64,000 bases of DNA from Physcia stellaris (lineage: Eukaryota; Ascomycota; Lecanoromycetes; Caliciales; Physciaceae), in assembly GCA_018902385.1 (NCBI GenBank), contig JABSSW010000014.1:434001-498000 (forward strand). Direction: 5' to 3'. The position numbers and the translations under genes were made by a program. Under the pieces are notes generated by a model, which saw only the letters and a program-made list of their open reading frames with translations, did not search any database and had not been told where the DNA came from. Of this stretch, positions 11,821-51,721 are shown piece by piece (within the stretch, counting starts at the first letter, position 1; each line of letters opens with the position of its first letter).

Positions 11821-11892
11821 CCCTCTACCTAGCGCGATCGAGCTATGAAGTGATATGTACATGAAACGATTTCTCAAAAACGAATGAACGAG

Positions 11893-12043
11893 AAACAAAA
11901 ACGTTTCGAAAAATGAAAAACAGAAAAAAAAAAAACAATGAGCGATCGTCTGCAATATAACGAGCAAAAAATTCGAACATTTTTTTTGACGATTGAATTT
12001 TTATGCGTTTTTTTTGCATCAGCATTTTTGTTCAACAAATCGA
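11893..12043 (-). repeat. Split repeat A2 (151 bp)
   Basis: This is a direct copy of 16281-16430, sharing for example AAACAAAAACGTTTCG and GATCGTYTGCAATATAACG. It differs by transitions and one base of length in an A-run. It abuts B1 at 12043/12044. Confidence 0.85.
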
Positions 12044-12162
12044 GCTAATGCTTCTGAAAATTTTTGTATAGAAATTTTGATGATTGATTCGATCAACGAG
12101 CATCGTTTATGCAAAAAACATTCATCAAGAACTTTGTTGAGCAATAGCATCGTCGATTAATT
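12044..12162 (-). repeat. Split repeat B1, hypermutated copy (119 bp)
   Basis: This is the damaged partner of 11702-11820. All 27 differences fall at C followed by C or T, or at G preceded by G or A. All 17 CpA/TpG and all 5 CpG dinucleotides of the intact copy are preserved. Confidence 0.9.
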
Positions 12163-12249
12163 TTCAAATCTCAAAACAACGTCGCGCGACGAAATCGTTA
12201 CAAACAAAACGACGTGCGCTCAACGAGTTCGAAAAATTTGAAAAAATCG

Positions 12250-13026
12250 AAAAACAACTAATTTGATTGTTTTATTGACGTCAATATATAACAAATACGC
12301 GTTGAACGATCAACGATTCAACATTTGAATCATGATTTCGATAACGTTTTGAGTTTTGATTTCTGTAGCGACTTTTCGACGAAAAAAATGCTTTGAATAG
12401 TGTTCACGTTTTTCAACGATACAGAATTTTTTGCGCAACACATTCGTAATCATTTGTGCACTGAAAAATTTGTATGATTCAATTTCGAACAATGACGTAT
12501 TCGCAATCGCAAAATATTTGATGAAAAAATGACGCAAAAAATTGACAAAGCAATTCGCATCGCTCGTTGCAACAATAGTAAAAATAACGTCGTGACGAAA
12601 AAAATTCATTTTGAAAAAAAGTAAAATCAATTTCAAAAAATCGTTTTGTAAAACAACGAAAAAGCGAATAACGTGTCATTGAACAAAATCGAATTCGTTT
12701 TGCTCGCTCGTCTTATACGTGAACTTTTTTACACGAAAAAATTTTGCGAAAATCAGACAGAAAACAGCGTGCATCGTGACGTTTCATCTGATGTTCGTAT
12801 TGAAATTTGTTAGCAACTTCAGCAAAATATCGCGAGTAATGAATTTACGCTTTCGACGATCGTTTTTTTGATATTTTTTCTTTATTTCGCGTATGTGACG
12901 TTGCAACAACGACGAGTTGAAAGTCGAAAAATTTGAATAATCGCGATTAATGTGTGCAAATTTCAATGCATCAACGTATGTTTTGATGATTTTGAATTTC
13001 AGACGATTTATGTTCATGAAAATCAT
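12250..13026 (-). pseudogene. Tyrosine recombinase of the DIRS-type element
   Basis: The core-binding region reads KTYVDALKFAHINRDYSN, then LLQRHIREIKKKY and FITRDILLKLL (12784-13026). The catalytic part has the FFRHDVIFTIVATSD block, HFFRRKVATE (HxxR-type motif) and MIQMLNR, then a TGA where a Trp is usual, then NAYLLYI with the candidate nucleophilic Tyr codon at 12286-12288 or 12295-12297. These enzymes integrate the circular DNA product of DIRS-type elements. Several residues that are normally Gly or Pro are replaced by Lys/Asn or Phe, as expected from GpG and CpC mutation. It is non-functional. Confidence 0.8.
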
Positions 13027-13753
13027 TCAATGATGTAACATTCATTCGTTGATCGATCAAAAATTCAACGCGATCAATCTCATCGAACAATGTCGTTTGT
13101 AATTGTTCATCGCAATTTCGTAATTGTGACGCGTATTAAAAATCAAATTTCATCAAATGTGATTCGTTGTTTTTTTAAACAAAAAACATTTTGCATATCA
13201 ATTTTCGAACGAATCTCGAATCGCATAAAGATTACGAAAGAAATCTGAAATCATGAAAATGTTCGATAGATTAATTGTTCAAATTCGTTAACAATGATAT
13301 CATGTTTATCTCGTGACAACAAATCAACAAAACGATTTTTTTTGAACTCGATTCAAACGACGTAAATTTCGATGTCGTGAATCGTCAACAACATCACGAT
13401 TTTGCGTAAATTTTTCATGACAAAATTTCGCATGATGTCTGAACGTAAATTTGCGCATATCGTTTGATTGTCACAATGAACGATGAATTTGCAATCGTTG
13501 AAATTTTCGAGTCAAATACGCATGACATGCAATACGATTTGCATTTTCTTGATTTGTATGTTTCGCTTTTTTTTGCGATATCGAGTGATGAAACGCTGAC
13601 TGAATATTTCGTCAAAAAGATTACGTCGATGACGAAATCGATAATCATCAATATTTCATTTTTTTGAAACGTCGATTCACATCAAACACTCGAAACGTGT
13701 TTCAAATTTTCGTATCATTTGATTTCGTTTCATTGCGACAAAAATTCGATTCA

Positions 13754-14032
13754 TCAAGTCAAATCGATTCGCATGTCATCGTTGATGTGTATTAGTCGTG
13801 TTTTCGAATCGAAAGTTCTGTAAAATGAAATCAAAAAGATTTTTTCAAACACAATCATTTTCGCGCAAAAAAAGAAAAAATCAACGAGTTCATCGAATTT
13901 CTGATGATTAATCGAATTGAAAAACTCGTTATTGACGTCATGAATCAATTTTTTGACGCGTTCGAGTTTATTTGCAAATAATTTGATTTTCATGAAATTC
14001 GAATTCAATTCGATGTTCAGAAACGACATCAC
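13754..14032 (-). pseudogene. RT/RNase H connection region of the DIRS-type element
   Basis: The frame contains FLNIELNSNFMKIKLFANKL followed by RVKKLIHDVNN, LVDFFFFCAKMIV and DDMRIDLT. Spacing and pattern match the segment downstream of the catalytic YxDD in DIRS/Ngaro reverse transcriptases, where FLG-E, L-GFLSFCAKV and MRADL motifs recur. It lies between the RT and the recombinase on the same strand. This is a fragment with no intact ORF. Confidence 0.7.
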
Positions 14033-14099
14033 GATGTTCGATTGTTTCTTTTTTGCGTTGATGCGAAAATTTAGCTTTTTACAAATATGAATTCACAAT

Positions 14100-14764
14100 T
14101 TTTTGTACGACTTCGTATCTGCGTCGAATAACAACACGAAAAAAAAATCATCGAAATAATGATAAATTGTAAAACATCGAAACAATCTGATGAATATGTA
14201 ATTGAGAATTTTATTGAACAAATCAAATAGAAAGAACGCAATGCGTAACTCGAAAAATAGAAACAATTTCAAATAATAAATATTCAGTCAATAGAAATCA
14301 AACAATCAACGAATTGATATGATCAACGATACGTGTCTGAAAACGTCAACAAAATTTTTTTTGAACATTTCGACATGACGATTTCGTCGCACTATTGCGA
14401 TTATGACATCGTTCACAACGATATATTCAAATGTTTCATATTTTTTTCGTATGTAATGATTGATTGACGAGTTTGCAAAATGCGAAAAATCGTGAATTCG
14501 TTTTCAATTTTCATCGTTTTTCGATATCAATTTCAACGAGAAACATATGTACGAATTTGTTTTCAATTGTGATTTCACGATCAACAATCTATTCAACGTT
14601 AATTGTTTCTGTATATCGACGATGAAAACGTCAGAAATTTTCTCGATCGAAACGTGATTTTTGAATATAAAACATTGTGAAAAGCTTTCGTAATTCATTT
14701 TCACATCGAAACGAATTATACGCAAAAAAGTTTTGACGAAAAATTTATCGAAATGAAAACGCAA
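14100..14764 (-). pseudogene. Reverse transcriptase of the DIRS-type element
   Basis: Upstream in the frame are NSYICFSLKLISKNDEN and RIHDFSHF, the RT entry motifs. They are followed by FVDVFRHVSL, then LRIAFFLFDLFNKILNYI, and then the catalytic YFDD in TIYHYFDDFFFV, with YFDD codons at 14147-14158. Two in-frame TGA codons lie between, at positions where Trp is usual. The motif order and spacing identify an RT, and the neighbouring recombinase places it in the DIRS order. It is non-functional. Confidence 0.8.
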
Positions 14765-15228
14765 CGTTTTTTTTCAATCATCATGAATCAACGAATTTTC
14801 GATTTTTAATTTTTTTTCATCATTTGATGCAATGTCATATGAAAAGTCTTTCGAAATTCATAGTAGAAAAAAAGAAATATTTTCATATCACGAAAAAAGA
14901 AGCGATTTCGTAATTCGCGACGAATTTTTTTTTTTTCGCACGAATCAAAGTCGACGACGAGTAAAACACGTTGTTTCGTCGTGATTTGATTGTTGACACA
15001 TGAAACAGACGTGAATTCATTTGCAATTCGATTTGATGCAATTTTCGATAATCTGAAAATTGACACAATCGTCGTTAAAGCGATTATAGAAATCGTTGAA
15101 ATTTTTGTCGAAAAATCGACGAAACGTCGTCGTTCGCGATTGAGAATCGAACGACGATAAACGTGTTTTTGCTGATTAGTCGTTTGTTTTTTTCGTCTCG
15201 TTGACATTGTCGATGATAAATTTATCAA

Positions 15229-16280
15229 TTTTCAACGCGTTTTTTCGTACGATTTCATTCAAAACTTGAAATTGTTTTGATTCATGAATATGATACGAGT
15301 CACGAACTTTTCGTGATACAACAGCACGAAAGCGAAAATTTTTTAATTCATTATCGTCAACAGATTTCGCATGTATGTTGATTGAATCATTGACAAATCG
15401 TATCGCATCGTTGACGTCGCGATAAAAAAAACAATTTGAAAATAAATTATTAAACAGCGCAAAAAATGCTTTTTGAATTTGATCATTTGAATCGCGTCGT
15501 CGACAAAACTGATTTTATTTGACGCGAAAACAAAAATCTCATCGAATTTTAACATGTTTTTGATTTTGAATTTGTCGATTCGAATATTTTCGAAATGTTT
15601 GCGATCAATGATCGAAAAGATGACAAACAGAACGAACTTCACGATTTGCTGATTGAAATCAATAAAAAATGTTCGAAATTTCGCGAATATCGCAGCTGCG
15701 TAAAAGTTGTGAAAAAGAAAAAATTGTGATACAACGAGAAAAATAAAATGCGCGTTTGATATCAAAAAAAACGTATCATCGTTGATCGACGACGAGAACA
15801 CGTGAAAAATCAACGAAATCGCACGATTTCGTTTCAATTGCATTTTTTTCTTTATTTGATTTTTCGTCGCGTCGATGTCGTTCTTTCGTCTGAAAACGAA
15901 AAGTTTTTGTTTGTTTGTTTTGATGAATTCGTTTTTCACGAGCTTTTTCATATCGACATTGAGAAAGCGAAAAAAAAACGATTGACGAGATCGAAATCGC
16001 GACGTTGAATTTGACGTCAAATGAATGATTTTTCTGACGTCGACGAAGCGTGTCTGACGAAACGTAAAATCATCGAAAATGATATTGAATTTCTTGAAAA
16101 ATCTGACATTCGATTTTTTTGTTGATTTTCTGTTTGATCATGACGACGACGACGTGAATACGCGACGCGTGTATAAAACGAAAAATCGATGATTTGATAT
16201 GAAAACGTCGAAAAAAATGATATTTGAAATTGCAACATTAAAACAGCAGCCGATTGATATACAGAAATTCGATATATCAC
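15229..16280 (-). other. 5' part of the DIRS-type element, gag-like region not identified
   Basis: The minus-strand frames 14806-15228 (Arg-rich N-terminus MSTRRKKQTTNQQKHVYRR) and 15343-16020 (225 codons) lie where a gag-like ORF would be expected. No zinc knuckle or other motif is recognisable after mutation. Confidence 0.4.
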
Positions 16281-16430
16281 AAACAAAAACGTTTCGAAAA
16301 ATGAAAAACAGAAAGAAAAAAACAATGAACGATCGTTTGCAATATAACGAGCAAAAGATTCGAGCATTTTTTTTGACGATTGAATTTTCATGCGTCTTTT
16401 TTGCATCAGCATTTCTGTTCAACAGATCGA
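16281..16430 (-). repeat. Split repeat A1 (150 bp)
   Basis: This is the 5'-terminal repeat of the DIRS-type element and a direct copy of 11893-12043. Its outer edge, ending CAGATCGA at 16430, matches the A2 edge at the B1|A2 junction. Confidence 0.85.
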
Positions 16431-16470
16431 ATTGCGATTTGTCGAATTCGTGAAAACGAACTTTTCACGA

Positions 16471-16525
16471 TCAGAATCACACTAAAATTCGAATCGAGAA
16501 ATTTCTTCTTTTAGTGTGATTCTGA
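16471..16525. repeat. Palindrome TCAGAATCACACTAAA / TTTAGTGTGATTCTGA
   Basis: Two perfect 16-bp arms (16471-16486 and 16510-16525) enclose a 23-bp loop, 40 bp outside the DIRS-type element. An equivalent palindrome lies at 60639-60696 in undamaged DNA. The sequence just to the right (GACTCACGATTATC) also resembles that locus (GACCCATGATTATC). Confidence 0.65.
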
Positions 16526-19500
16526 CTCACGATTATCGTAGAATTGAATCTTCTTTTTTCGCTATTGACAATTTTCGCTTATACGTGATATATGATGCAA
16601 ATCAAACGATCGTCGTCAATTTCAAATCGACAACGCGTGTGCGCATTCGATTTCGTTTGATGATTCACGTTCGAACGAATCTGATTTCGCGAACGATTTT
16701 TCTCGCTCGTTGTTTGTGAATTGACATTCGAAACGATGATAAAATATTTTGAAAAAAATCTGTGAATTGAAACTCGAAACGATGATACGTAAAATATTTT
16801 GAAAAAACAAAATGAAAAATCAATCGCTCATCGAGACGTCGCGATCGTTGCTTTGAACAAAAAACGAAAACGAACAAATCTCGTTCACACAAACTGAAAT
16901 TGATTTTCACGCTTTCGTTTCAAAACGCTTTCTCGCGATGATTTTTGAAGATGAATGAAACGACTCGATGATTTTTTCAGTTCATGCGACATAAATCAAA
17001 TGATAACATTCAACTTCGAAAATGAATCGATGAATGAATGACGAAATCAATCGCGATGTGTGTTGTTGTGTTGTTGTGAATTTTTTTTTGCGTTCGAATC
17101 TAAAAGCGTCGAAAGTTTCTAAACGAATTTTTTTTTTTTGTAATTTTCTGTTTCAGATTTCGCATCGTTCAACAAACTTTCGTATACAACGTATTAAACA
17201 GCGATCAACGCATTTTTCAGTTTCATTTTTTTGAAAATGTCAAAGAACGTTTTGAATGTGATTTTCGCGATTGATGAACGTTTTCGCGAAAAATTCGAAA
17301 AATGATCGAAATTTGATCTTTGACAATTTTTGTATGTTTTGAAAAATTAATGATATGCGCAATCAATTTTCAAATATTCATATAATGTGAAATTTCAAAC
17401 GTGATTTTGAAAAAAAAGTTTTGAATATCAACGTTTTTGCATTGTGATCATGACAACGTCGACGTCGTTCAAAAAATTCTTATATTCATCATAATTTTGT
17501 TGACTGTGTACGAAATCATATTTGAATCGTTGATGCGATCAGAATTTCGAAATTTCAATAAATTTGAAAAAAGAAATTAGATGTGTCTGAAATATTCGAT
17601 GATTACACGATTTTTCAAATTTAATTCACATGATGTTGTTCAATTCAAATTTCAAAAATAAATTATGTGAAACAATATTCATCGTCACGTCGACTTGCTG
17701 TAAGAAATTCGAAATTTTCAATTAATTTTGTCAACAATGTACGATCAAGCACGTGAATCGACTATATCAACAAAATTTTGAATTTTCATTAGATTTTGTG
17801 TTGATGAAATTAATGATTTCGAAACGATTTTTTTTTGATCACAATTCATGAATGTCGAAAAATCAAATTGAAATGCGAACTTTACATGCACATGCACACG
17901 ATTTGAAATCAATTTCTCATTGCTATCTAGATATTACGTTTGATAATGTCATATTTTCGAAATCAAAATATTTCAATTGTTTTTTTAGTTTTTTGTATCT
18001 ATGATTTATCTTTTTTTTTTTGAACAAAACGACACGTTTTTCTTGCGTGAAATAGTCGAAAACGTTGACAAAATTTTCATCATATTCGTTTTTAACACGA
18101 TCGATATTTTTGACATTGATTTTTTTTTGTACGTTGCGATTTTTCTTGTGATGTCAATTTGATTCATAGATTTTGTTTTTCGTGTTTTGAAATCAAGATT
18201 TTGATGATGAGTTCAGAAATTTTCGTTGAAATTATATCGACTTCGTAATTGCACGATTTGTTGCATTTGATCAATCAACAATGAACAAAATAAACGTTCA
18301 TATGATTTACTTTTCAAATACGATATTGTTTTTTCATAGTTTTTCAGATTTGCGATTGTTGTTTTTTTTCAAACAATTTGTCTCAATATCTCAAAGAAAC
18401 GATCACGTTTTTGACGAAAATCACGATTGCGACGAGATTATTTCATTCGTCGAACAATCGATTGAAATTTTTCGAATACGTTTTGACGAGAGATGTCGAT
18501 ACATCGAATTGAACATATTGAATCGTTTTATGAAACATCGTGAACAACAACGATTTTTTCGCGTTCGCATTTTTTTTGTTTTTTTTTCGAAAAGTGTTTG
18601 TATTGTTTTGTTTCAATCGATTTCGTTTGAATGATGTGATTTGTGAATATATCATTTGTTCATACATGTCGTTTCGCGCGTTTGTAACGAATTTTCGTGC
18701 AATTTGTTTCAAAACGTTTACGATCGAGACATTTGCATGAATGTAATGATGATGAATAAAATGAATATCGATGTTCGATTTCGAAATCGATGAAATTATG
18801 ATTTTTCGCATCAATGAAATTGTCGAAATCATTTGATTTGTGAACAACGAAAAAATATCGAAAATCGAGTTCGCAAATAACGAAAAGTTCGAACAATGCA
18901 CATCGCGATCATCGATGACAAATTCAAATTCAACATCAACGAAAACGTCGAATTGTTGCAATTTGTATGTAAATAAATATTGATCAATCAAGAAAGAATA
19001 AATATGTATCGAATCAGATCGCGAAACGTTCGTTCATTTTTTTTTTTCATAAGACTGTAAAGTATGTGAATTCAGTTTTTCATTTTGATGATTTGATTTG
19101 AATTGCGCAAATTTCGTTCAAATTTGCAATCAATTTTTTTTTTTTTTTCGATAAAATCGCAAATTTTGAAGTTCGCGATGTCGTTTGTTTGCGAACGTTT
19201 TTTTGAACATGATGAATACGATTGACGAATTCGAATATCGATATGAACGTAAAAAAATTTGATGAAATCAAATGAACGATATGTAAATAACAAAATGCAA
19301 AATCAACGACACGAAACGAAAATTTTCGCGTTACAAACATTCAGTGCTTTTTCTTGACACATCATTCAATTTTTTGTGACATTTATATTTAAAATTCGTA
19401 TAATCGTTTGTTTTGTTTTTGACGTCGTTTTTATTATCGTACGAATAATGTTACAAAACAACAAAATGTTCAATCAACGTTTCATCGACGAACAAATTGT

Positions 19501-22500
19501 TGAAATTGATCAAATCAAAAATATTTCGTTTTTTTTTCAAACGTGTTGCGTTGAATTCATTCGTTCGTAAAACATTGTTTACATACATATTTTGACAAAT
19601 TTTTTTCAAAATTCAAACAACAAGTTATTATTTTTGATCGCAATTTTTTTGATTTTTCAAAAATTTCGTCATTTTTCAATACAGTACAAATTTTATTTGT
19701 GCGTTTATTTTTTGTTCGCGTCAAATGCATTTCGTCAAAAATCAACGCGTCGTCGTTCGATTTTGTGTTTTTTGAAAATTACAAATTGATTTACGACAAA
19801 AAACGATTGTTCAATTCAATTTATCGTTTTTCAATCAAAAATTCAATATGAAATCGATCATTTTCGCTCAATTGCGAATCATCATGAAAAAAATTACAAG
19901 AAATTCGATCATTGCACAGAAAACAAAATTCGATTTGATCGAATCAATCGAAAAAATGAAAATCGAAATAGTCGAAAAAAACGAAAACGAAAAAAAAAAA
20001 AATGAAAAAAAAAAAATGAAAAACAAAACAACGAATCAAAACATCAATTTTCAACGTTCAAAAAAAAAACACATGTGTTCAAAAAAATGTTACAAAAATT
20101 TTTGAAAAAGTTTACGTCTCTTTTACATTGAAAAATTACAAAGAATTTGTGATTGTTGTTCATTAAATCAACGTTACAATTAAAAATCATATAGTCAATG
20201 AAAGCAATTCGAAACGTTCGTCAAGAACAATCTTTTTTCGAATTATTTGAAATGTTTCAAACAATTCGACGCAAAAACGTTCGAATTGATCATGATTTGA
20301 ATATACGTCGTTTGTGATAATTCGAACATGATTTTTATCGATACAAACAACGTTGAAAAAAAAAAAATTTTTCGATTTGATTTCACAAAATCGAACATAC
20401 AATCACGCGTTGAAAATGCGTTTCGCGTGCAATTGACATTATGAATATCGACAAAAAAAAATATCGATACGTTTCGTCACGAGAAAAATGATTTTTGAAA
20501 TGACAATTCGTCGTTGTTTTTAAACGTGTTCATTTACATGAAAAATTTACAAAAAAAAAAAATAAAATATCGTCGTTGAATTGTTAAAATATTTTTTTTG
20601 ATAATGTATGTTATTTACAAATTGCAATATCGAATCGACAAAATCGTTATCAACGCGCGCGTTATAAACGAAAAAAATTTACAAAAAATGTGAAAATACA
20701 ATCGACAACATCGTTCGATCGATGATTTACAACGACTCGATACAAATCATAATGAAAATCGATTTTGAATCGAAATCAAACAACGAATTATGTTGCAATT
20801 GATTTACGTCATGATTTTTTTGTGTTTATTGCGAATTGACGAAATTTTGCGCATTGAATTTCATCATATTGAAATCGTAAACGAGAATTTCAATTATTTT
20901 TGCATCAAATTGATGTTGAAATTTCGAAAAATTTCATCAAAATGAAAATAAGCAAAACATTGATAACGAACTCGTCAACAATACAAGATTAACAATGTTT
21001 TAAACATCAAATTTTTTTATTTTTATGACAATAAAAACGAATTTTGATTGAATGTGTCTCATTTATTCGCAAAATGAATTGTCTTGTTCGATTTTGAATT
21101 TAGCGACAAAATTTTTCGACGATTTGATGTTATGAATCGCGTTGTCACAATCAATGTTTTTTTTATGATATTGAATTTGATATTTCAAATTGAATGAATT
21201 TCGTTAACGTTTTTATTACAAACATTTCAAATTTTTTTGAATAATTTTCGCAATAATTTTGTTGATATCGATGTGAATTCGAATTTTTTCGAAACGCACT
21301 TTTTTCGCAAAGACGATGTTCAATATTTCTTGATTCAAAAACGTTGAAATATTCGCAAATTATGTGATTGAAACGATTGAAATATGAAATATGACAATGT
21401 GACAATTGTTAAATACATTATCAATTGAAATGATAAATTTATCAAAATGCGAAAAGATTTTTTTAATTTTGACGATCAAAAAAATACACGTTGCAACGCA
21501 TGCGACAGAAAATGCGATTGCGCATAATTGTTGTTCATTTTTGTCGATATTTGAAGTCAATTATCGATTTCTACGAGAACTTTTTCGTAATGATTTTTTC
21601 GAATCATATTGAAGAAAATTTCAAAAACAAAAATTTTGAATTAATAAACAAAATTCAAAATCGTCACGAAAATCGAATGACAATATCGAGCAAAAACAAA
21701 TTTCGAAATGTCAAACAATGATTTGTCGACGAATGCAAATTTGATCAACGATAATTCGTTTCATTGACATATGTATATATTTTTTAGAACATCAATTTTT
21801 CGTTAATCGTTCGATGTTTTTTCATGATCGTTTTGATTCGAAAATTTTCAAAATAAATCGTACGTTATTGCATATTAAATATCGCAATTCGATTGAAACA
21901 ATAAATATTGTGAAAAATGTTGTTTTGTCGTTGATATTGTCAATCGAAAAATGTTTAATCAATATTGAAATTCAAACGATTCATTGATTGAAATCGTTTT
22001 CGTGTAATATACGTTGTTGAAAATGTATTTCAATTAATTGTCGAAATTTTTATTATTTTTTCAACATATATATTCGTACGATAATTTCAATTTATTTGTA
22101 AAAAATTGAAACGATCAATCGAATTTAAAATGAAAATTTTTTAACGTTCAAAAAAATTGAAATTGAAAACGTGTTTACGAAAATTGTCGATTGAATCATT
22201 TTTTATTTTTCACATCATTTGAAGCATCGTTTTTCATTATGAATCACATTATTGCATAACAAACAGTTCGTTCAATGATTACGATTTGAACAACATAAAG
22301 TTATTGCTTTAATGCAATACACAGCAACAAGATTTGTCTTGTTCAAAATTTTGAGTCAGAATTTTGACATTTGTTTGATATATGCATTTATCTTTAAAGC
22401 AAAAACGAAAATCGTTGTTTTATTGACTTCTATTATAACTTTTACTATTTTTTTTTCACAGTGACATGAAGTATGTCAATGCAATGTTTAATGAATATTT

Positions 22501-22689
22501 TTTAATTTGCTAATATGTATTGATGCAAAACGAATTTGTCTTTGAATGTTCAACGCTATGTGTTTTAAAATTATAATCATTTTCGCGAACGCATGATCGA
22601 CTCAACAATGCAAAATTGAACGAAAAAAACAATTATCACGAATCGAAAAAAACAAAATCAAAATTGAACGTGACGAACACAAAACGACT

Positions 22690-22860
22690 ATAAATAGCTG
22701 ATTATTGAATGTAAATGATGCGAAAGCTGAAATATTTTAAAGCAAAACGTGAAAAATTTGAAGCAAAACGTGAAAAACGACTATAAATAAATTGAATGTA
22801 AAAAGAAAACTGATTTTGAAACAAAACGTGAAAAATTGAAAAACTGATTGTAAATATATT
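22690..22860. repeat. Short imperfect tandem repeats (AAAACGTGAAAA units)
   Basis: Units built from GCAAAACGTGAAAAATTTG and ACGACTATAAATA recur several times in 170 bp. Confidence 0.5.
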
Positions 22861-23402
22861 TTGATTGATGAAAATGTGAAAATATTTGATAATCGTCGCA
22901 TAATGTTTATATATGCAAATAAAAAATCAATATTTTAATGAAACGAATTTGATTGAATGATTTAACGATTAAAATTGTAAATAAGCATTTTTCATTCAGA
23001 AAATCGCGAATTCGAATCGTATGATGAACAAAACGTGTTAAAAAATCGAATGAATTATTTCATGATTATAAATTAAAAACGCAAATTCTGACGCGAATGA
23101 AAATTTTCAAAATAGTCGAATTGATAATTTGAAATCACTGCTAACATGTGAAATATAACAAACAACAAACATAATTTTTTTTTTGTTGTTGTTGTGATCA
23201 ATGATCGAAAAATCGCGCGAAATACGAAAAAAAAAAAAACGATTGAAATGTTGACAAAACAACGACGATTACAAACAAAAATGACAAAACAAAATCGAAT
23301 CAAAATGATGTGTGAATCGAGAAAAAAAAAATGATAAAAACATCGTTCGAAAAAATAAAAACGATTTAATCGTATTTGACGAAATGAATGATAAAAAAAA
23401 TG

Positions 23403-23434
<32 letters not shown>
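23403..23434. repeat. A homopolymer, about 32 nt
   Basis: An uninterrupted run of A. It could be a former poly(A) tail or simply slippage-prone sequence, and its length may be uncertain in the assembly. Confidence 0.7.
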
Positions 23435-23436
<2 letters not shown>

Positions 23437-23637
23437 GAACAAATGTTTCGACAAATTTTTTATGATAAATTGAAAAAAAAACGCAACAAATCGTAAAATT
23501 GTTAATGATTAAAAAAAAAAATTGCAAAAAACGAAAAAAAAACGAATCGAACAAATGTTTCGACAAATTTCTTGATTTGAATTGTAAAAAAAAAAAAAAC
23601 GCAACAAATCGTAAAATTGTTAATGATTAAAAAAAAT
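23435..23637. repeat. Tandem duplication, unit about 110 bp
   Basis: The blocks ATCGAACAAATGTTTCGACA and ACGCAACAAATCGTAAAATT occur in the same order twice, starting near 23435 and 23546, separated by A-rich linkers. Confidence 0.75.
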
Positions 23638-33518: not shown

Positions 33519-33659
33519 AGGATTCTGTTTTTGGGCCGACTGGCTCGTTAAACAGGAGCTTGAGTACGAGCCTCAGTTCTCACAAAAGAAGCATACATAA
33601 GTTTATCTCATTGATGATGGGAGTCTACCTACTTTGTGACGAGCAGACAGTCACAAAAG

Positions 33660-36813: not shown

Positions 36814-36859
<46 letters not shown>

Positions 36860-37716: not shown

Positions 37717-37789
37717 CTTTTTCACAACATTCGTCTGTGCTTTCTGTTTAAAGCAAATATTCTGATTAGTTTGAAATTTTCGTGCAAGC

Positions 37790-40079: not shown

Positions 40080-40260
40080 TTTTTACTCATTCACTGAACT
40101 GATGATCGAGTTTGTGTCGTGAATTTTTTTCACAATTTTAACGCGATCGAACGATGAATTTTTTTCACAATCGTTTGTTCATTCGCAAAACTAATGATCA
40201 AGCTCGTTGTAAATTTTCTTTATTGTCTTGACGCGATCGATCGATGAATTCTTCTCATTG
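40080..40260. repeat. Tandem duplication of about 100 bp inside the LTR element
   Basis: The words ACTGATGATCGAGTTTGT, GTGAATTTTTTTCACAAT and ACGCGATCGAACGATGAATT recur in the same order as ACTAATGATCAAGCTCG, TTTATTGTC and ACGCGATCGATCGATGAATT. Confidence 0.55.
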
Positions 40261-40442
40261 TCGTTGATTTTCGTGATTCGTATCGTGATCGAATCGATGC
40301 GATTATGAATGCGAATTCGCGTACGAAGAAATTCAAATTTCTAAAAACACAACAATTCACGACTTGTCAGATCGAATTGCTTTGTCAAAGTAATTGCAAC
40401 ATCATTGTCACGAACAGCATACGTTAATTCGAACTCATAATC

Positions 40443-40628
40443 TGTTAAACAAACATGAACAATGACTGCATGAATTGCGTGTAATTTCTAAATACAAACA
40501 AATCGAAAATTTTGATGTGTGCGATGTCAAAGCACTAATTTCAACAAAAACGCATTAGTTTTCGTTTCGTCAAATTATATCAATCGAATTCTTGCGCATT
40601 TATCATTGAGAAGACTGTCTTTTCAACA
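40443..40628. repeat. Right LTR (186 bp)
   Basis: Direct copy of 37531-37716, same length, followed by the AAAAT target duplication. Confidence 0.9.
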
Positions 40629-41053
40629 AAAATAAGCTTAAATTTAGTATATCTTGGCAGTTTTGTATCACAACATTGAAATTTCAACGTTGTTAATACA
40701 TTGTTTTAAATTTATAAATCAATAAGTTATATGTGTTTAAATAATAGTACAAATTTTCAATTCATTTGTATTTGTTGTTGTCGTGAAAACTCAATTATTG
40801 ACGAAAATTCGTTATAATTTCTTGCGAAAAGAAGATTTTCGAATTCGCATTTAAGCGAGCTTTTCGATGAGTTCTGCATACGTTAATTGCAAAACTTTCT
40901 GTCTTAACGTCGAATCAGAGTTCACATTCATCTGCAATTAATGAATTATTAGCATCTTTCAAATGTGCAAAATTCTTGAAAATCTTGACGTTTGATTTTT
41001 CTTCGTGAGTCATTCAATTTGTCAGCAATCAATGAGTTTTAATCGATTGACGT

Positions 41054-41213
41054 TGAAGAGTTCAAATAGTAAAAACAACAAGAAAATCGATATTACGATA
41101 GAGCACGATTGAATGATAAAGATGATTAATTTGTTATTTACGATCAGAAATCAGATATGCAATTTGATGACTAATTAACGATCATATCGCTCATAACATT
41201 TGCAGAATTTACA
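41054..41213 (-). repeat. 3' LTR, hypermutated copy (160 bp)
   Basis: Copy of 51562-51721 without indels. It is the more damaged partner: 24 differences, all transitions at CpC/CpT or their complements. Confidence 0.9.
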
Positions 41214-41226
41214 TTATCTCTTTTTA
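41214..41226 (-). other. Polypurine tract of the retrotransposon
   Basis: On the minus strand AAAAAGAGATAA lies immediately before the TGTAAA start of the 3' LTR. That is the position and composition of the plus-strand primer site. It fixes the element on the minus strand. Confidence 0.65.
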
Positions 41227-41290
41227 GATTTTTTGATTTTCTAGTCAAATTCTTTGATCTCAAAGTCATTTGTCATAACATTTCAATTTG

Positions 41291-41695
41291 TCGTTTTCCG
41301 TAATGCGTTTTTTTTGAAAAATAAATCAAAGTAAATTGAAAAAATAAATCATCAATGATTTCGATCGTAATGTGTTTCTTTGTCAAAATAAAACGAAACG
41401 AAATAAGAAAAATCTGAAATAAATCATCAAGTGATTGTTTCGATCGTAATGCGTTTTCTGATCGAAATGAACTGAAAATCGAAAATTAGAAATATCGAAA
41501 ATGAATCAGAATTTGAACGATTTGATGTTCTGTCGTAATGCATTTCTGTCAAAATAAAGCGAAAAATAAAAAAAATCAGAAATAAATCATCAATGATTTC
41601 GATCGTAATGCGTTTTTTTTGAAAAATAAATCAAAATAAACGAGAAATCTGAAATAAATCATCAAGATATGATTCTCGTCATAATGCGATGTAGA
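41291..41695. repeat. Minisatellite between integrase and 3' LTR, about 6 units of 68-88 bp
   Basis: The core GATTTCGATCGTAATGCGTT recurs near 41298, 41366, 41445, 41534, 41603 and 41681. The copies are separated by AAATCTGAAATAAATCATCA-type sequence. Confidence 0.75.
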
Positions 41696-44684
41696 ACTAA
41701 TTTTTCAACGCTGTGTCGAAATCTTGAGTTTTCGTTTCTGAAAATAAAAAATCGTGATTTTTGCTCGTATAATAATTTTTTTGCTTTTTTTTTTCGCTGT
41801 CAATCTTTTTTTCTTTGCTAATTTCAAGAATTTTTCTGTGTTCACTTCTAGATTATCTAGATACGTTTTGAAAGTGTTATTTTTCGTTTTCAACGAACGA
41901 TTTTGTCGTTTTAACTTTTCAGCGCGAATACGAAAAATTTTTGTTGTTTTCAATCATAGTGCGAATTGTTTTTTATTGACAATTTCGTTAGCGATTTGTT
42001 TTCGAATCAATTTCACAATTTTGTTTTCAATCGTTAATCGAACTTTTTTCATTTTGAACATAAACTTGTCGATTTTGCATATAATGAATTGATAAATCAA
42101 ATTGACACGCGTTTTTTCGTTGATTTTTTTGTTTTCAAATGTTTTTGCGATTTTTCGAAATTTTTTCGTAAAGAAATTCTTGTTTTGTTTCAATTGTCTC
42201 ATACGTTTTTTTTTGATTTCAGTTTTTGTTCGAAACAAATTTGATTCGCGAATTTTATTTTTGAAAAACGTCGAATTCGATTGTTCAAAACTTTTTAAAC
42301 GTTTATTCGATCATATAAATTCGTCGTTGTTTTTTTAAATATCAAATGATAATATTTTTCGAACAAAACATTTTTAAAATTTCAAACGTATGAGATTATG
42401 ACTCATTGTTTTTTAATCGTAAATGACGTGTCGTTGTTTAATTTCAGTAATTTTTTCTCGTTAGATTTATTTTTCATGAAAACGTTTTTCGTGACGTGTT
42501 CATATTTTTGTTTTTGCTTTGTTGTCGTTTTTCGTTTTTTTTTTTTTTGTTCGATTCAACAATTTCTGTTGTCGATTTTTTTTTAACACTCGTCGTTTGC
42601 TTTTGAAATTTCTGAAAAGTTTTCTCTGTGTATCGAAAAAGTTTTTTCGTGTTTTTTGCAATCTTTTTCGTGTTCTTTGTTTGTTGTTTTGCTGTTTTTT
42701 TTTGCTTTTTCGTATTTTTATTTTTTTTTTTCACAGTTTTTTCTTGCTTTTCTGTATTTATTGTTTGCATAGATGATTTTTGCAAATTGATTGAAAATAT
42801 AAATTGTGATAAAGTGAATAGAAAAAAAATGTGCGAATTTTTCGTCGTAATGTGCTTTTCAATCGAATAATGAGATTGAGTTGAATGAAAAAATGATTTC
42901 GAAAATGAGAAATTTGATAATTCGTTCATGATATTTTTGTCGATTGCAAAGTTTTGTAATTTTGTAAAATTGAAATGTTTTTGAAATTAAGATTTGAATT
43001 GAATGAAACAGACAATTCTATAAAGTGAAATCTAATTTGAAATGTTTTGAATCGAAAAACGTATCGTCGAAAATTTGAATTGCGCAATAATAATGAAAAT
43101 ATTACGAAAATGAATACGACGAAAATCATCATGTCGTCGCGAAAAAAATTCGCGAAACTGTTATCGTTTTGCGACGATTTCGTTTCGCTCAAATATGTCA
43201 TTTTGTTATAAATGATTACATTTGTCATCGACGTTTCTAAATTTGAACAATTTGTAATCGATTGTCTATTTTGATATTTCGAATTTTATATTTCTCAGAA
43301 TGAAAATTTAACGTCATCGTGTCTTGAACGAGATGAAAAAATTCACTATTTTATTTTTTTCGAATTTTTCTCGAAATCTTTTTTGTCGAAACAAAAATCG
43401 AAAAACAATATATCGTAAATATTAATGAATCATGATTTCTGTGAAATTTTTCAATAATATTGATGATGATTTTCTGTCATAAATGATAATTCATTTGATT
43501 CGATTGTGAAATTTCATTATTTAATTTATTTTTGAAATTCATAATTTGAACACAATTTTTTGAATTTTGTGATTCACATTTTGTCTGAAAGTAATGCTAG
43601 TTGAAATTTTCGAGAAATTATTTTACGACAGACGTTTTCAAATTGAAAAATTTCGTTAAATTTCGAATTTGCGTAATGATATTCAGAACGTTTTTAAGTT
43701 TTGAAATTAAGTGAATGTTAAGAAAAACGTTCAAATGTTATCGTCGATTATTTTCGAGCACATTTTCAATGACTGTAAAATGAATAATGTAAATTATTAT
43801 TGCGTCAACGTTTTTTAATATTTTCTAAAACATTATGCGATTTCAATCTCGTTCGATTCTCGATTATTGATTGATTAATTGTTGAAAATTCACGATTTTT
43901 TTTTTATCGCGTCATCAATTTCATTTTGTTTCGTTCTCATAATTGTCAGTTGAAATATTAGATGATACATTTCATCATTTCTTGTCGATTTTTTTCGTTT
44001 TTTTTTCTTATCGGAATTTTGATCGTTCGTTTGCAATTTTGCTTTTTTAATTTTGATTCTGTTTCGATGTCATTGTTTCACGTTTTGTCGAATTTGATTG
44101 TTTATTTTTGTTATCGATTTTTAATTTTGATTTGAATTTTCATGTTGTTTTTTTTCGATTCATAATTTGACATCGTTTATCGAATATCGTTTTTTGACTT
44201 TTTCGATATACATTTTTTTCAATCAGAAATTCTTTTCGTGTCGCGTCAACTTGTGAACAATATACGAATTTTCTCATTTTGATTTCAACTTATGCAAATG
44301 TTGTTTTTTTTACGTCAAACGTTTGAATTTAATCAAACATCTCGTCGTAATTGAATTTTTTGACGTTTTTTTGTTTTCTTTCTCAATCAGCATTTTTTTT
44401 TTGATTAAATCGCTTTTTCACTGTTGTATCACGTAACTCATTCAGTTTAGATAATCGTTGTTCAAACGCAAATTTTTCAATAACTAATTTCTTTTCAGTA
44501 TTTGAAAAGAAATTTTCTTTAAAATAGCATTTTTTATCATTTTCATTCGCAATGAGTTTTCGTAAAACGCATTTTCGATAAAATATTTAAATTGATAATC
44601 GAACAATATTTTCGCTGAAAAAAATTCGTATATGCGAATTAGTTTGATATTGATTGCATTCACAACGTTAAATAATAACAAATT

Positions 44685-45440
44685 TCATTCGAAAATCATT
44701 TCTGAATAATGTTGTAAAATTGCGCGAAAACAATTCAAAATGAAACGATTGTATCGCTCGAAAAGTTTTACAGATTGAAAATGCGAAATCGAAACAAAAA
44801 TTTGTCGTATTTTACGATGTGATAAATATTTTGAAAATAATTTTTTAAAGTGCGTTTCATTATCGTGATATACAATTTTTGAATATTCGAACACGTTCAT
44901 CATTTTTTTTTCGAAAAACATGACAGAATTTTCAAAAATTGCGTTTGACATTGCGTCAGCGAACAGAAATCGACATATGTAATCGACGTCAATTTGTATA
45001 AATTTCGTTTCATTTTTGACGATAAAATTGATCGATTTCAAATAATTTGTTTCGACAAAATCGAATGACTGAATGAAAACAATAAATAAAAATTTCTCAA
45101 TCGATTTTAGAAAATTCAACATTTGACAATTCGAACATGAACGACAAAATTCAAAAATATTTTTAAATCTAGTCGATCAATAGTATTTCTCGACTGTTTT
45201 GACTTGCGTGATTTTTTTCGAAAAATGTTCACATACGTTGTGCAATAAAACAAAAATTTGAATCATTTTTTCGATATGAAAACAACGATTATAACGTTCG
45301 AATTTTTCAAAATACGTCAATTTTCGCGAATTCTTGCTTTCGATTAATAGAAATTTTCTAGATTTTTTTTCTGACATTTTATGAACGATTTCAAGCAAAA
45401 AATTATCAATTTTAATAACATTTCGAATTTTGTATTTCAC
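44685..45440 (-). pseudogene. Integrase (zinc-binding region and DDE core) of the gypsy-type element
   Basis: Upper part (45440-45120): histidine-containing segment IEKMIQIFVLLHNVC, then, after a TGA, FCRSCSNCQ, the CxxC half of the HHCC finger. Lower part (45122-44685): the core with FIQIDVDYICRFLFADAMSN (first Asp), IVYHDNETHFKKLFSKYL (second Asp) and ISHFQSVKLFERYNR (Glu). Spacing fits a retroviral-type rve domain. Gly and Pro positions are altered, and it is interrupted by stops, so it is inactive. Confidence 0.8.
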
Positions 45441-46379
45441 GATATTCGCATATCAGAAATCGTTTAATTATTTTTGTCAAATCACTTTTCAATCATTTTT
45501 CGAAATCGAAAATGTATCATTTTGAAATTGCTCATCATTTGTCGTAATTGAATTTTCTGCTATTTTCGACAATTTGTTCGCTAAAAAAATAAAAAAATTA
45601 TTTCATAAAAACTGTTCGTCATCTGTCGTAACTGAATTTTTTGTGACAGAAAAAATCATCATCGTAAATTCGAAACTGAAAAACGATGAAAATGAATAAT
45701 CTATGATTTTTGACAAATTGTCTGTTATGATTAATTTTTTTTTTGAAACATGAATGATATTCAGATTGAATTTCGATAACGTTAATTGTCAACGAATTAT
45801 TTTATTTGTTATATTTTCGTTTTTCAGACATTTCGTTAATGCTGAATGATTCGTGTACAATTTGATCGAATATTGAAAATTTTGTATTAATCATTTGATT
45901 TCTGTCAAACATTTCACGACTGTTAATGTTTTTTTCTCAATAATTTGATATTTGATTTGTGAAAAATTGTATTGATAATTTAAAAACATCACTATTTGCA
46001 TGTCGTTCAAAAATTTCTTACGATGAACGATTTCAGACGAATGATTATCAAATTGAAATAAAATTTCGTTTGTTTCAATTTTAAAAACGTCGATAACAAA
46101 ATGTCATTGACGTGTATCATTTTCGCTTGAACATATGATTTTCATAATTGTTTTTTTAATTTTTTGAAACATTCGTTCATGATTGAAAATTCACAGAAAT
46201 TTTTTTTTCTGTTTAACATTTTGTTTCTTGTCATTTCTCAAAATGATGATTGTTTTTTTCATTATGATCGTACGAAAAAAAGAAAATCGATCGACGCGTT
46301 CAGAAATGTATTTTTTAAAAAAATAACATATACAAAAAACGTTCTAATTTCTCTTTGCAAATAAATGAAAAATATTTTC

Positions 46380-46716
46380 TAAACATTTTTATTTTGTTTT
46401 CATTAGATTTAATGTCTTTAAAATTTCGTTTATGTTTTAGTAATTGTATTTTGAACGTGAAAAATTCGCATTTTTTGAAATTCAAAATAAGTTTTGCTCA
46501 TATTAATCTTGAAAAATAATGAATATGTAAAAAATTAATTAATGTCGATAAAATGTCGAATTTTTTTACGTCGTCATCAATAAAATGATTGAAAATTGAA
46601 TATTCAAAATTCACATTCGATAAAACAGATTTTGAATTCGATTTTGATATATTGTCTGTAACAGTATTTTTTAATTGAAAATATGTTTCAGATTTTTCTG
46701 TTGTATTTTGTTTCAT
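46380..46716 (-). pseudogene. Reverse transcriptase fragment of the gypsy-type element
   Basis: The frame holds FNHFIDDDVKKFDIL, the position of the catalytic YxDD. About 30 codons later, after one TGA, comes AKLILNFKKCEFFTFKIQLL, which matches the LxLxPxKCxFxxxxVxFLG block of Ty3/gypsy reverse transcriptases. It lies about 1.1 kb upstream of the integrase finger, the usual distance. The rest of the RT and the protease were not readable. Confidence 0.65.
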
Positions 46717-48540
46717 TCTAAAATAACAATAAAACTCAATGATCGTATTGATGTCAAACTTGTACGCATGAAAAAGATGAACAAAAATCGTTCAAAAATT
46801 ATTCGTCGCGTTCGCTTTAAATAAATATTTGACGAAAAATTGTGTTAAATTTTTGAAAATTGATTCGATTTTACGCATTGATTGATTCGCTTTAATAATG
46901 ACTTCGTTTAAATCACAAAAAGCATGCATCATTTTCAATTTTTCATTTGATTTTCGAAAGAATCGTGTTTTTGAAAATCAGAAAAAATTGCATTTCATGA
47001 TGATTTCAGCTTTTTTTAACAGTGAAATGTTTTTTTTCTGTCATTTCACTTTTTTTGCTGTGTAAAAAACAGATTTAATTATTCGCGAAATGATATGTTG
47101 ATACGTTGAAATTTTGTGTTCAATTAAATTCGTAAAAGACATATTTTTAATATTCGTAACAAAAACGTTTTTTCAGATTTTTAATAAACAATGTATTTCA
47201 TGCTTTTTCTGATTCGTAACGATCAAGTTTCTTATCAAATTTGAAAAAGTTTTCAGTCATAAATTAAACTTTTTCGAAATTTTTGTTAATAATTTTTTGC
47301 GAAATTCAACTGATTTTTTTTTAGTAAAAAAATTCATTTTTTTTTTCTCAAAGATTTTTTTTTCATCATGTATTTGCATCGAAATTTCTTGATGAATGTT
47401 TACGACAAAAAAATTGAAAATCGAAATTTTCTTTTTCGACGATGATTTTGTTGATCATTTTTGATAATTTTCGATCATTTGTATTTGCGTTTTTTGAAAT
47501 TTGATTTTCGTCGCATTTTTAATCGAATTTCTCATTTTATGTTCGAATTTTTGTTTACAGACAGTTTTTTCGTTTTTATCATGTTTCAATTTCATTCACA
47601 TCGTAAACAGATGATTTATGATAGAAAATTTGAAAAACATTTTTTTGTTTCGTCATTCATTTTTTTTTCGAATTTATTTTTGTCGTCAAGATGTTTTTCG
47701 AGACAAATTTACGTCGAATTTTTTTTATGACAAAAAGTCTTGATGCAATGATGTAACTTGTCGATATTTCAATTTTTTGATGATAATTTACGTATGTAAT
47801 TTTATCAATTTTCATTTTCGAAATCGTTTTAACAAATTTTCTTTTCGATTTTTTGTTTTTCGATTACACATCGTAATTTTTCATTTTGACGTCGACGTCA
47901 TTTTTTTCGATTTTATGTGATATTGTTGAATGATTTTTTTCGTTCGTTTTACGTTTCAATGTCGTAAAAAAAACATGATTTTTTTTTGATTTGCGTTTTT
48001 TTTCAAATTTATTTTTATCATCAAATTAATTTTTTCGTTTCACATTTTTTTTTCAATTTTTTTTACGATTTGTCGAAAAATCTTTTCAATTTTTTTTTTT
48101 TCGTATTTCAAATCAATGAACGTTTCGATATCAACATTTTGCATTAACGCGACATTCATTTCAATTTCGTATATTTCTTTTCGATTTTTCTTTTCGAAAT
48201 CAAACATTTTCATTTTTTTGTAATTTTTTGCAATCGCATTTTTAATTTAATATTCGTCAAATTCGTACAAATCGATTGCGATCACGTTTTTCAGTCACGA
48301 TTTTTTTAAAATCATCGAATAAATCGTTTTTTTTGACACAATTCAAGTTTTTATCACACGATTAATTTCTGTCGTGACGATTTTCAGTTTGATATATTTC
48401 GAAAAACGAATTCTGTTTTCGTTTGTTATGATCATTGTTATAAATTTTTTCGAATATGTGATTTCGTTCATTGCGTGAAAAATTCGTTCAAAAATGAAAT
48501 TCAATGTAAAATTCGAATCGACAAATATTTTTTTGATGTT

Positions 48541-50020
48541 TCAAATATTAAACAATGATTTGCGAAATCTGATCATCGCTTGAATGTAAAAATTTTTCAT
48601 TAAAGAATTCGCTAATGAGATTTGAAATGAAACAAAATTAATGAAACGACAATAAAATTTTTTGAAATCGTTTGTTGAATTTTTTGCGAAACGTTTCATG
48701 CGTTTGTAAAAATTTTTTGATTTCATTGTGTGTCGACGTAATAAATTTGATCGAAACACATTGTTTTCGATCATTTCAGAAACATGATTGACTTTTTCTA
48801 TCTGTTTTGCAAATTGTACATTTTTCTTTTCTGTCGTAAAGAGTTTTTTTTTCTTTTTTCGATTGAGATTTGATTGTAATCTTATTGCGTTTGTCAATTG
48901 TGTTCTTGTTCGCGAAATTATGATTAATAATTGTTTCAACTCAATGTTAATGTTGATATTTTTTATTCAATCATTGAAATCAAACATTTTTTCGTTTGTT
49001 TTCACAATTTTTATGAATTGTATTTGTGCTTTATTTCTTGTTGTTCGCTTTTGTTGAATTTTTGATATGAACGAAATCAATGAAACAAATGACGCATTCG
49101 AATTATCTCGTATCGTTTTCGAATTCGATGATTTATTTTTCATAATTTCATCGATAAAATCAAATTCTTCAAAATTTGTAAAAAATTTCGATGTTTGATT
49201 TTGTTGAAATCGATTATTGTTGAAATTTTCAATGCGACGAAACATCTTGATTCTGAATTTTTTTTGATTCATTATTTTTTTCAAAATGAAATTTTGATCA
49301 ATTTCGTATTCGATCGCATTTTTTTTAACGATCAGTATTTTTTTCTTTTTGTTTTCACACAATTCGCATTGATTGTTTTGATTCAAATACATTTGTTTAT
49401 CGTTTAAATTTCATTCGTCGATCATTTTTTGTTATTTTGAAATATCATGAATGTTTGTTGAATAACAATCGTGCTCGATCATAGAAATTTCTGTCGTACG
49501 AAATTTTTTCGCAAATAATATTTGTTGTGTCGTCGAACGTTTTTTTTTTTCATTTTTTCGAAACAAGCAATTTTTATCTTTTTTAGACGTTTGAAAATGA
49601 GAACATTGTTTGAAAAAATGCTCGATTTTTTCACAATTATAACAGATAGAAAAATTGACATTATTGAACGACGTTACAGATGATGCAATTGCAAACGCGT
49701 AATACAGAAAATGTTGTGAATTTTTTTTGAAATTTCTATTTTGCTGTTTTTTATATTTCTGATTTTGATATTTTTGTTGATTATTTCGATTTTGATTGTT
49801 TTGATTTTGATTTTTCTAATTGTATTTTTGTTTTTTTTGATTGAATGCATTATTACGACAAAAAACAAAAACATTTTCGACATTTTTTTGTTTTTCAAAT
49901 TGACGTTTTCTGAATGATGTTGAAACGTTGAAATCGACAAATTGTCGAATAAAAATCGAAATGACTTTGTTATTTTGATTTAAAATGATTGCAAACATAC
50001 GATTCTTTGAATTCATTTCT
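48541..50020 (-). pseudogene. Gag region of the gypsy-type element with zinc knuckle
   Basis: A stretch rich in Gln and Asn (49.7-49.85 kb; CAA and AAT codons) is followed in frame by CYNCEKIEHFFKQC near 49.63 kb, a CX2CX4HX4C knuckle with all four ligands intact. Frames at 48967-49392 and 48541-48939 continue on the same strand; the latter has a capsid-like helical pattern (FKKFYCRFINF). Survival of the CAA runs shows that CpA was not a mutation target. Confidence 0.7.
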
Positions 50021-51561
50021 CGTTGTAATTTCGTTATCGAATTTTTTTTATTTTGATTTTCGATAATATTCTTGATTAATTTGACAGTGATTTCAAAATC
50101 GTACGTCGAATTTTTTTCTGTGCAATTATTTTTTTAACGATTTTTTTCGTCATGTCATCGTTCAATTTCGATATCATTTTGTATGACATTTGATTTTGTA
50201 TCTTTTTGAAAAATATTCGTTGAATTTTTTTCGCTTTTTCAACATATTCATTAAACGATTTTTTTAGTTGTTTAAAGTTATATAATGCATTTAAAATCGA
50301 TTCGTATTCAATTTTTTTTTTAAAAAAATTTTTTTGCGAAAGCTTTTTGAAAACATTTCAATTTTTCATCAAAATATTTTTTTGATTATTAATTCATTTG
50401 ATTGCGTTTTTTTTAGTTTTGAATATCACGATGTAACATTGAAAATTTTTTTTGTTTTTCGTGTTTAATTGTGATTGAATCAACTATTGAATTTCGATGA
50501 ATCGTAGTCATCGAAAAAAAATTTTCGAAAAATATTCGTGAAAATTCGAAATTTGTATGATTTTCGAAAACATTTTTTTTTGATAATCAATTACGACAAA
50601 CGTTTTTAACGTATTGATGTTTTTGAAAATAATAAACTGTTTCGTGAAATGTTGTGAAAATATCTTTACAAAAATCGATTTACGATAAAAGTGAGAAATT
50701 TTTCGTTAAAATTGCTTAAAAAATGAAATCAATTCGTCGATAAAAGTGAAAATTCGACTTTTTGATTTTGAAAATTCAATAAAAATAACGAAATTGTTTA
50801 TCGCAAAAAACTTTGATAAATCAATAAATTCAATTGATAATTCAAATATCGAAATGATTGCGAATGTTAAAATAATTTCGAAAAATTCGTTTTTCAATGT
50901 TTTGTTATTTATCGACATTGAAATTACTGATTTAAAAACAGATGATTTAATTGAATTTCACAAACGAATTTTTTTCGTTTGTTTTTTTTCTCGAATCTTG
51001 TACAAATCAAAAATAAAATTTATGTCAGAATTCGACTTTGACATCAATTTACTTTCAAGAAAAAATTTATGATAAGTGTTTTCAATCTATTTCGATGAAA
51101 TGATTGAAAAATGATAAATTTTTAAAAAAAAAATTATGACAAGATGTTTTTTTTCAGTCGTTGAAAAAATCGATCAACGAAAATGTTCATTTTTCGAAAA
51201 ATGCGAATTCGATTGATTTCGACTAAAATCGATTATGATAAAGTTGTCAAAATTGATAACGAAAAATGCGAATATTTTCGAATAAACAAATCGATGATAA
51301 ATAAAATAAGTTGTTGAATGATTTTGTGATGTAATAAAGTCGTAATCTTAATAATTGATGTAGAAATTGTGAATAATGTTCTTGATGATAAATAATCGTT
51401 ATTGTATTGTAAATTCTGAGTTTTAACGTTTGACGATTTTCAAATTTTTCTATCGTAATTTCAATCTCATTCGACGTTTTGTATTCTCGTGACATTTAAT
51501 TTCGAATTTTGATTGCGAATCAATGATAAAAATTTAAATAATTTCTGACTAAATCATCAAA

Positions 51562-51721
51562 TGAAAAGTTCAGATAATAGAAACAACAAGAAAATCGATA
51601 TTACGATAGGACACGATTGAGTGATAAAGATGATTAATTTGCTATCTACGGCCAGAGGTCAGATATGCAATTTGATGACTAACTAGCGGCCATATCGCCC
51701 ATAGCACCTGCAGGGCTTACA
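51562..51721 (-). repeat. 5' LTR, partly intact copy (160 bp)
   Basis: The right two thirds (from about 51645) are GC-balanced and undamaged. The left part carries the same type of changes as the interior. The edge of the mutated block therefore lies inside this LTR. Confidence 0.9.

Follow-up and report, generated by a model that had tools for sequence, protein, structure and literature searches.

In repeat-induced point mutation (RIP), as described in Neurospora crassa and Trichoderma reesei, C:G pairs of repeats are changed to T:A on both strands, and both fungi carry RID- and DIM-2-type genes (PMC11969663, PMC5496416). N. crassa follows the order of preference CpA > CpT > CpG > CpC, and T. 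reesei likewise places CpC last (PMC5496416). The RIP field has yet to settle how the cytosines are chosen and whether RID is the enzyme that carries out the chemistry. Here, we analysed a 64,000-nt stretch (the window) of the lichen fungus Physcia stellaris (Caliciales, Physciaceae). It spans C14:434001-498000 in an assembly whose 147 contigs (C1 and so on) total 43,974,083 bases; positions without a contig number are counted from the first base of the window. The window holds two blocks of repeats that share with N. crassa and T. reesei the C:G to T:A changes on both strands, in a genome with RID- and Dim-2-type genes, but CpC is hit first and CpA and CpG are nearly spared. The context order is CpC > CpT >> CpA > CpG. 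We consider it probable that the blocks consist of mobile repeats on which a RIP-like process directed at repeats has acted, with the 3′ neighbour setting the choice of cytosine and a RID/Masc1 homologue taking part. This near-inversion of the N. crassa preference occurs in a species whose two RID genes have diverged, and it offers a direct genetic handle.

The pyrimidine side of this preference is not wholly new. In Magnaporthe oryzae, Botrytis cinerea and Sclerotinia sclerotiorum a 3′ pyrimidine is likewise used and a RID-type gene is present, but CpT is hit alongside CpA, and CpC goes unmentioned in the available text (PMC4352252). CpT to TpT is the dominant form in an alignment survey (PMC7882544), CpT has been called dominant for Tad1 of N. 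crassa (PMC2621366), and one paper on Monilinia mentions CpC-to-TpT double changes (PMC8959702). Rhizoctonia solani AG8 also shows RIP-like C-to-T changes; it is a basidiomycete, however, and its authors call the process CpG-biased, moderate, and alike in genes and repeats, although Table 2 of the same paper gives CpC the shortest mean spacing (214 bp vs 370 for CpG) (PMC4014442). Cladonia rangiformis and Endocarpon pusillum, with strong RIP, resemble P. stellaris in their AT-rich, compartmentalised repeats, and Cladonia has RID and DIM-2 homologues; the terms CpA, CpC, CpT and dinucleotide are absent from the available text of the Cladonia paper (PMC12542154). RIP is not discussed in the available part of the P. 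stellaris genome note (PMC7513301). Among the open-licence papers searched, as far as their accessible text goes, we found no report of CpC-led RIP in an ascomycete, and the CpC lead with near-sparing of CpA is new to that literature.

Two blocks of the window have lost CpC and most CpT

Dinucleotide counts delimited a first hypermutated block at 11830..32675 and a second at 36289..51608. Between 12 and 32 kb, we found a single CC and no GG (observed/expected ratio 0.00), the sole CC/GG dinucleotide of block 1 lying at 16250, while the ratios were 0.24/0.25 for CT/AG, 3.14 for CG, 1.30/1.33 for CA/TG and 0.37 for TA. Block 2 keeps scattered CC and GG (five and four, respectively, at 37-51 kb), with ratios of 0.50/0.41 for CT/AG, 2.83 for CG and 0.42 for TA. 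In both outer flanks, the ratios for CC, GG, CT, AG and CG stayed within 0.90-1.08. Per kb, CC+GG numbered 0.05 at 12-32 kb vs 106 in the left flank (0-11.8 kb) and CT+AG 25 vs 127, whereas CA+TG (132 vs 139), CG (61 vs 54) and TA (48 vs 47) remained close to flank density. These densities show that the region has lost its CpC and most of its CpT, has retained CpA and CpG, and has acquired no TpA. The loss of CpC in the blocks was independent of the 5′ base, none of the four being protective. An earlier note on this DNA, made from the letters alone, had described the blocks as nearly without CC/GG, poor in CT/AG and dense in CG, CA and TG, and the counts bear this out more strongly than it stated. 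It had also treated 11845..51650 as one hypermutated range; both blocks in that range are indeed hypermutated, but it includes an unaffected island separating them (32729..36288, ~32.7-36.3 kb).

The same pattern occurs elsewhere in the genome, at C14 ~502.4-523.6 kb (L008-L010) and C8:300-304 kb (L022), and one of 14 blindly picked 10-kb regions of C1-C10 held such a block. The usual RIP indices do not detect it. Against thresholds of 0.89 for TpA/ApT and 1.03 for (CpA+TpG)/(ApC+GpT) (PMC3897900), the 12-32 kb region gave 0.38 and 1.39 and would be classed as 'not RIPed' by either, whereas Endocarpon repeats meet these classical CpA indices at 1.47 and 0.70 (PMC3897900). Indices that score CpA and TpA cannot register RIP at CpY (CpC or CpT), and therefore surveys such as the study of 1,239 fungi, which concludes that a preference for CpA is common to RIP-like defences (PMC12543289), may have missed cases.

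The 3′ base decides which cytosines are changed

We searched the genome for the reverse-transcriptase domain; all 150 scored of 527 candidates matched, 10 of them without stops. Two intact copies, L048 (on C12) and L049 (on C52), were used as references. L048 had at least 40 matches, with 40 scored out of 190 candidates, and L049 had 20; these were 68-83% identical apart from the copies themselves and one 96% copy; another copy, L050, had no relatives in the genome search. We then aligned 640-base pieces of five relatives of L048 and L049 (L053-L057) and pooled three mutated copies of two families (L053, L056 and L055), leaving out L054, a near twin of L053, and L057, which is nearly unmutated. 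Relative to the intact copy, C-to-T (or G-to-A) changes had occurred at 204/226 CpC, 197/273 CpT, 18/233 CpA and 9/226 CpG sites. Copy by copy, 60/70 CC, 49/89 CT, 4/81 CA and 0/76 CG sites were changed in L053, 69/74, 82/94, 12/81 and 7/76 in L056, and 75/82, 66/90, 2/71 and 2/74 in L055. Accordingly, CpY was changed at 401/499 sites and CpR (CpA or CpG) at 27/459, an odds ratio of 65, and CpC was changed more often than CpT (Fisher p 3e-7, for sites and copies that are not strictly independent). The earlier note had proposed a RIP-like or deaminase-driven process with CpY specificity, and these alignments support a RIP-like one. It had proposed to judge that reading by the share of CpA-to-TpA changes, which proved not to be substantial: CpA accounted for 4/113 C-to-T changes in L053, 12/170 in L056 and 2/145 in L055. 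Decay of methylated CpG was rejected as a cause, with CpG changed at only 9/226 sites and standing at ratios of 3.14 and 2.83 in the blocks. L053 (C95, a 32-kb contig) and L054 (C51, a 365-kb contig) are identical at 633/636 aligned bases, which reflects either duplication after mutation or redundant assembly.

Repeats within the window gave the same picture. An intact copy directly outside block 1 (11702..11818) differs from a damaged copy inside it (12044..12160) at 26 sites, 15 CpC and 11 CpT. A ~10.7-kb element bounded by terminal direct repeats (41050..51724), which we read from its structure as a putative long-terminal-repeat (LTR)-like retroelement, ends at the right edge of block 2; its right terminal repeat (51562..51721), in which damage lessens outward, differs from the damaged left one (41054..41213) at 24 sites, 10 CpC and 14 CpT; at three of the CpT sites the C stands in the opposite member of the pair. 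The earlier observation that these two pairs differ only at CpC and CpT thus holds at 26/26 and 24/24 sites. Where both members of a pair were damaged, differences also fell at CpA (pairs D4, D5 and D7) and CpG (D4), with transversions in D4 and D7. Across copies of the LTR-like element, at columns with C in at least six copies, ten copies carried T at 4-22 of ~174 CpA (2-13%) and 0-5 of ~140 CpG. When columns with C in a minority of copies were retained and L033 was removed, 12.4% of CpA, 4.7% of CpG, 78% of CpT and 87% of CpC were changed overall. An apparently large CpA and CpG change in this element (17-28% and 19-22% per copy over 11 copies) was discarded as a signal, since it came mostly from the divergent L033 (74% identity, 214 transversions). 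The sparing of CpA is strong, but not absolute (2-15% per copy); the claim that CpA and CpG are spared therefore stands as a strong tendency and fails as an absolute rule.

C:G to T:A changes made up 116/120 substitutions in L053, 170/178 in L056 and 148/159 in L055, on both strands, leaving 4, 8 and 11 others, respectively. Given that they so far outnumber the rest, the process was fast relative to background. This bears on slow decay, in which a Dim-2-type enzyme would methylate silenced repeats mainly at CpY and 5-methylcytosine would deaminate to T over time. A Dim-2-type gene is present, severity is graded among the LTR-like copies (57-96% of CpT changed), and in N. crassa RID and DIM-2 both feed the mutation of genomic repeats (PMC11969663), all of which would suit such decay. 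However, with CpC near zero, passive decay should have gathered far more background change than the 4 other substitutions beside 116 C:G to T:A in L053. Moreover, we know of no Dim-2 enzyme that methylates only at CpY, and we regard slow decay as unlikely.

The 5′ base was nearly without effect: per 5′ base, 85-95% of NCC and 64-74% of NCT were changed in four copies, two of them near twins. In the four copies including L054, the first C was changed in 35/50 CCC and 79/82 CCA, perhaps because the second C of CCC often goes first. This dependence on the 3′ base also speaks to a cytidine deaminase, AID/APOBEC-like or other, acting on the repeats. The output, pure C-to-T on both strands, is what a deaminase would give, and the genome has eight PF00383 matches with functions not assigned; PF08210 gave no match in the genome, but none in control genomes either. 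AID/APOBEC-like deaminases are known for a 5′-neighbour context, however, and because the context here lies 3′ with almost no 5′ effect, we consider a deaminase improbable, somewhat more so than slow decay.

Damage ends with the repeats

Block 1 contains a ~16-kb repeat (16540..32728) collinear with C14:507562-523593 at 93-94% identity over most of its length, and eight further copies share 93-97% identity with its segment 20000-21500, while a ninth shares 81%. On the right side of this repeat, CC resumes at 32676, ~50 bp inside the end of homology (32728). We also profiled nine of the eleven long 3′ ends of the 10.7-kb element, excluding the divergent L033 and L034, which abuts another mutated stretch. 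From 1500 to 200 bp inside the element, CC+GG numbered 0-2 per kb; the density then rose to 18 (200-150 bp), 33 (150-100), 91 (100-50) and 153 (last 50 bp), and stood at 99-136 beyond the end, in nine different flanks free of damage. Damage is thus confined to repeated sequence at these nine 3′ ends and where the 16-kb repeat stops on its right side, evidence drawn from 3′ ends of the 10.7-kb element, with the left ends of blocks 1 and 2 not matched to a repeat edge. In N. crassa, by contrast, mutation reaches single-copy DNA beside repeats (PMC11969663). Damage that fades within the last 200 bp of the element and leaves the flank clean points to a repeat-targeted, that is RIP-like, process. 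This edge profile is the best evidence we have for a mechanism that recognises repeats, as opposed to chemical damage or regional bias.

Alkylation damage is a case in point. The signature of O6-methylguanine, G-to-A after a purine, equals C-to-T before C or T, so the dinucleotide context is alike; but a general cause would not be limited to repeats, the nine flanks are clean, and the genome has two matches to PF01035, the family holding O6-alkylguanine transferases, so that this source is very improbable. Compositional accident (AT-rich foreign DNA) or an assembly artefact with wrong base calls, which the extreme composition of the blocks might suggest, is hardly credible, since intact (GC ~0.51) and mutated (0.24-0.33) copies align base by base, with nearly every difference being C:G to T:A at CpY, and the signature also appears in database proteins of other contigs.

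Candidate methyltransferases

The process is RIP-like in the features tested here bar the usual CpA preference. As in Neurospora, the repeats would be recognised in the sexual cycle, and a homologue of the RID/Masc1-family methyltransferases, its 3′ preference altered, would carry out the conversion. Fruiting bodies are abundant in P. stellaris (PMC7513301), which we count in favour of a RIP-like reading. The earlier note had suggested a search for RID and Dim-2 genes; the genome gave four matches to PF00145 in three genes, two of them RID/Masc1-type, RID-A (C5:499307, motif EQT) and RID-B (C6:791557, motif EET), and a third (C3:340323, motif ENV) of putative Dim-2 type. An altered RID- or Dim-2-type methyltransferase, as the note had conjectured, is a plausible source given these genes, one RID of which belongs to a long-branched clade.

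RID-B homologues include proteins named DmtA, and in sequence comparison its methyltransferase part matches DNMT1 and M.HhaI. Ascobolus Masc1, which acts in methylation induced premeiotically (MIP), and the DmtA-type proteins of Eurotiomycetes belong to the same methyltransferase family as the P. stellaris RID genes; MIP, however, methylates without mutating (PMC4352252), whereas the P. stellaris system is known here from sequence. We built a quick tree of 78 rows, comprising 76 of the 236 homologue hits, RID-B and a Dim-2-type outgroup. RID-B fell apart from RID-A in a 20-row clade with support of 100 and a long stem (0.79), nested in a 32-row set (support 97) that contains Eurotiomycete DmtA-type proteins. 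The sole other named member of the clade in the tree is from Heterodermia aff. obscurata. The catalytic Cys and MEET are kept in 18 of the 19 database members, the exception, P0036, being a fragment, and in five of the 18 Pro replaces the Gln after the catalytic Cys. One residue of the catalytic loop is Gln in 18/18 proteins of the RID-B clade vs His or Lys in the 25 readable of 27 from other RID clades. Three short RID-type proteins of Teloschistales (P0044, P0064 and P0079) have PPCK for PPCQ at the catalytic motif and MENT at the E-T motif.

Among the three genes, RID-B may be the likeliest carrier of the altered preference, which we put forward tentatively; RID-A and the Dim-2-type gene are the alternatives. 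A wider proposal, that RID-B of Physciaceae and relatives, with its loop Gln, turned RIP from CpA to CpC/CpT, that several lineages share this, and that the RIPed DNA is partly read with TGA as Trp, seems to us rather doubtful, and it is weakened by the fact that only two named species carry RID-B among the hits.

Several observations weigh against a repeat-targeted, RIP-like process or against its link to RID-B. CpA, the usual and commonest RIP target, is largely spared. The leak at CpA rises in heavily hit copies, with rates of 5% in L053, 15% in L056 and 3% in L055, and the heavily hit L056 has both CpA (12/81) and CpG (7/76) changed. Two saturated copies of segment 20000-21500 of the 16-kb repeat show C/T differences at 22 CpT, 18 CpA and 1 CpG, while 180 CpA, 168 CpG and 6 CpT are still common to both. 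Moreover, two 96% identical retrotransposon copies, C12:59900-61200 and C5:1166109-1167409, are essentially unmutated, differing by 14 C:G to T:A and 8 other changes without clear context, which implies that the process either is less than fully efficient or did not act recently; these copies are either recent arrivals not yet hit or escapees. In three copies, CpT targets gave no signal in a test for strand runs. Finally, the link to RID-B is correlative, the tree is a quick one, and the RID- and Dim-2-type labels come from homology and motifs.

Stop codons and proteins read from mutated DNA

Given that CpY change creates TGA from TGG but no TAA or TAG from CAA or CAG, the stops it makes should nearly all be TGA. 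A hand-typed tally of the 150 reverse-transcriptase matches gave 250 TGA, 33 TAA and 3 TAG. This excess is partly compositional: all frames of block 1 contain 1436 TGA, 730 TAA and 75 TAG. Stops dominated by TGA could mislead gene prediction.

The two longest frames of block 1 and the frame of L052 are without Pro, Gly and Trp. With the L052 frame as the query, 109 proteins were found among 355 candidates, and 85 of the 109 lack any Pro or Gly, in a hit set biased by a query that itself lacks both and possibly including Physcia proteins. We compared 10 of the 109 hits with four intact relatives. Conserved Gly had become mainly Asp (15) or Glu (14) and Pro mainly Ser (48), while His was kept at 30/38 places and had become Tyr at one. 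Related open reading frames in public sequence data thus appear to bear the same CpY signature. Trp occurs in 35 of the 85 Pro/Gly-free proteins, partly at Trp places of the intact relatives, and such proteins are probably RIPed frames called with TGA read as Trp. P0239, P0247, P0253, P0268 and P0341 are among these Pro/Gly-free, Trp-containing database entries.

Other features of the window

The unaffected island between the blocks carries a 545-aa reading frame on the minus strand (33660-35297), for which the only profile match, TPR, lies below threshold (25.9 bits; cut-off 30.1). Block 1 includes a run of ~32 A at 23403-23434. Nested inverted repeats of 92 nt (89% complementary) and 107 nt (74%) lie at 62766-63406 in otherwise normal sequence.

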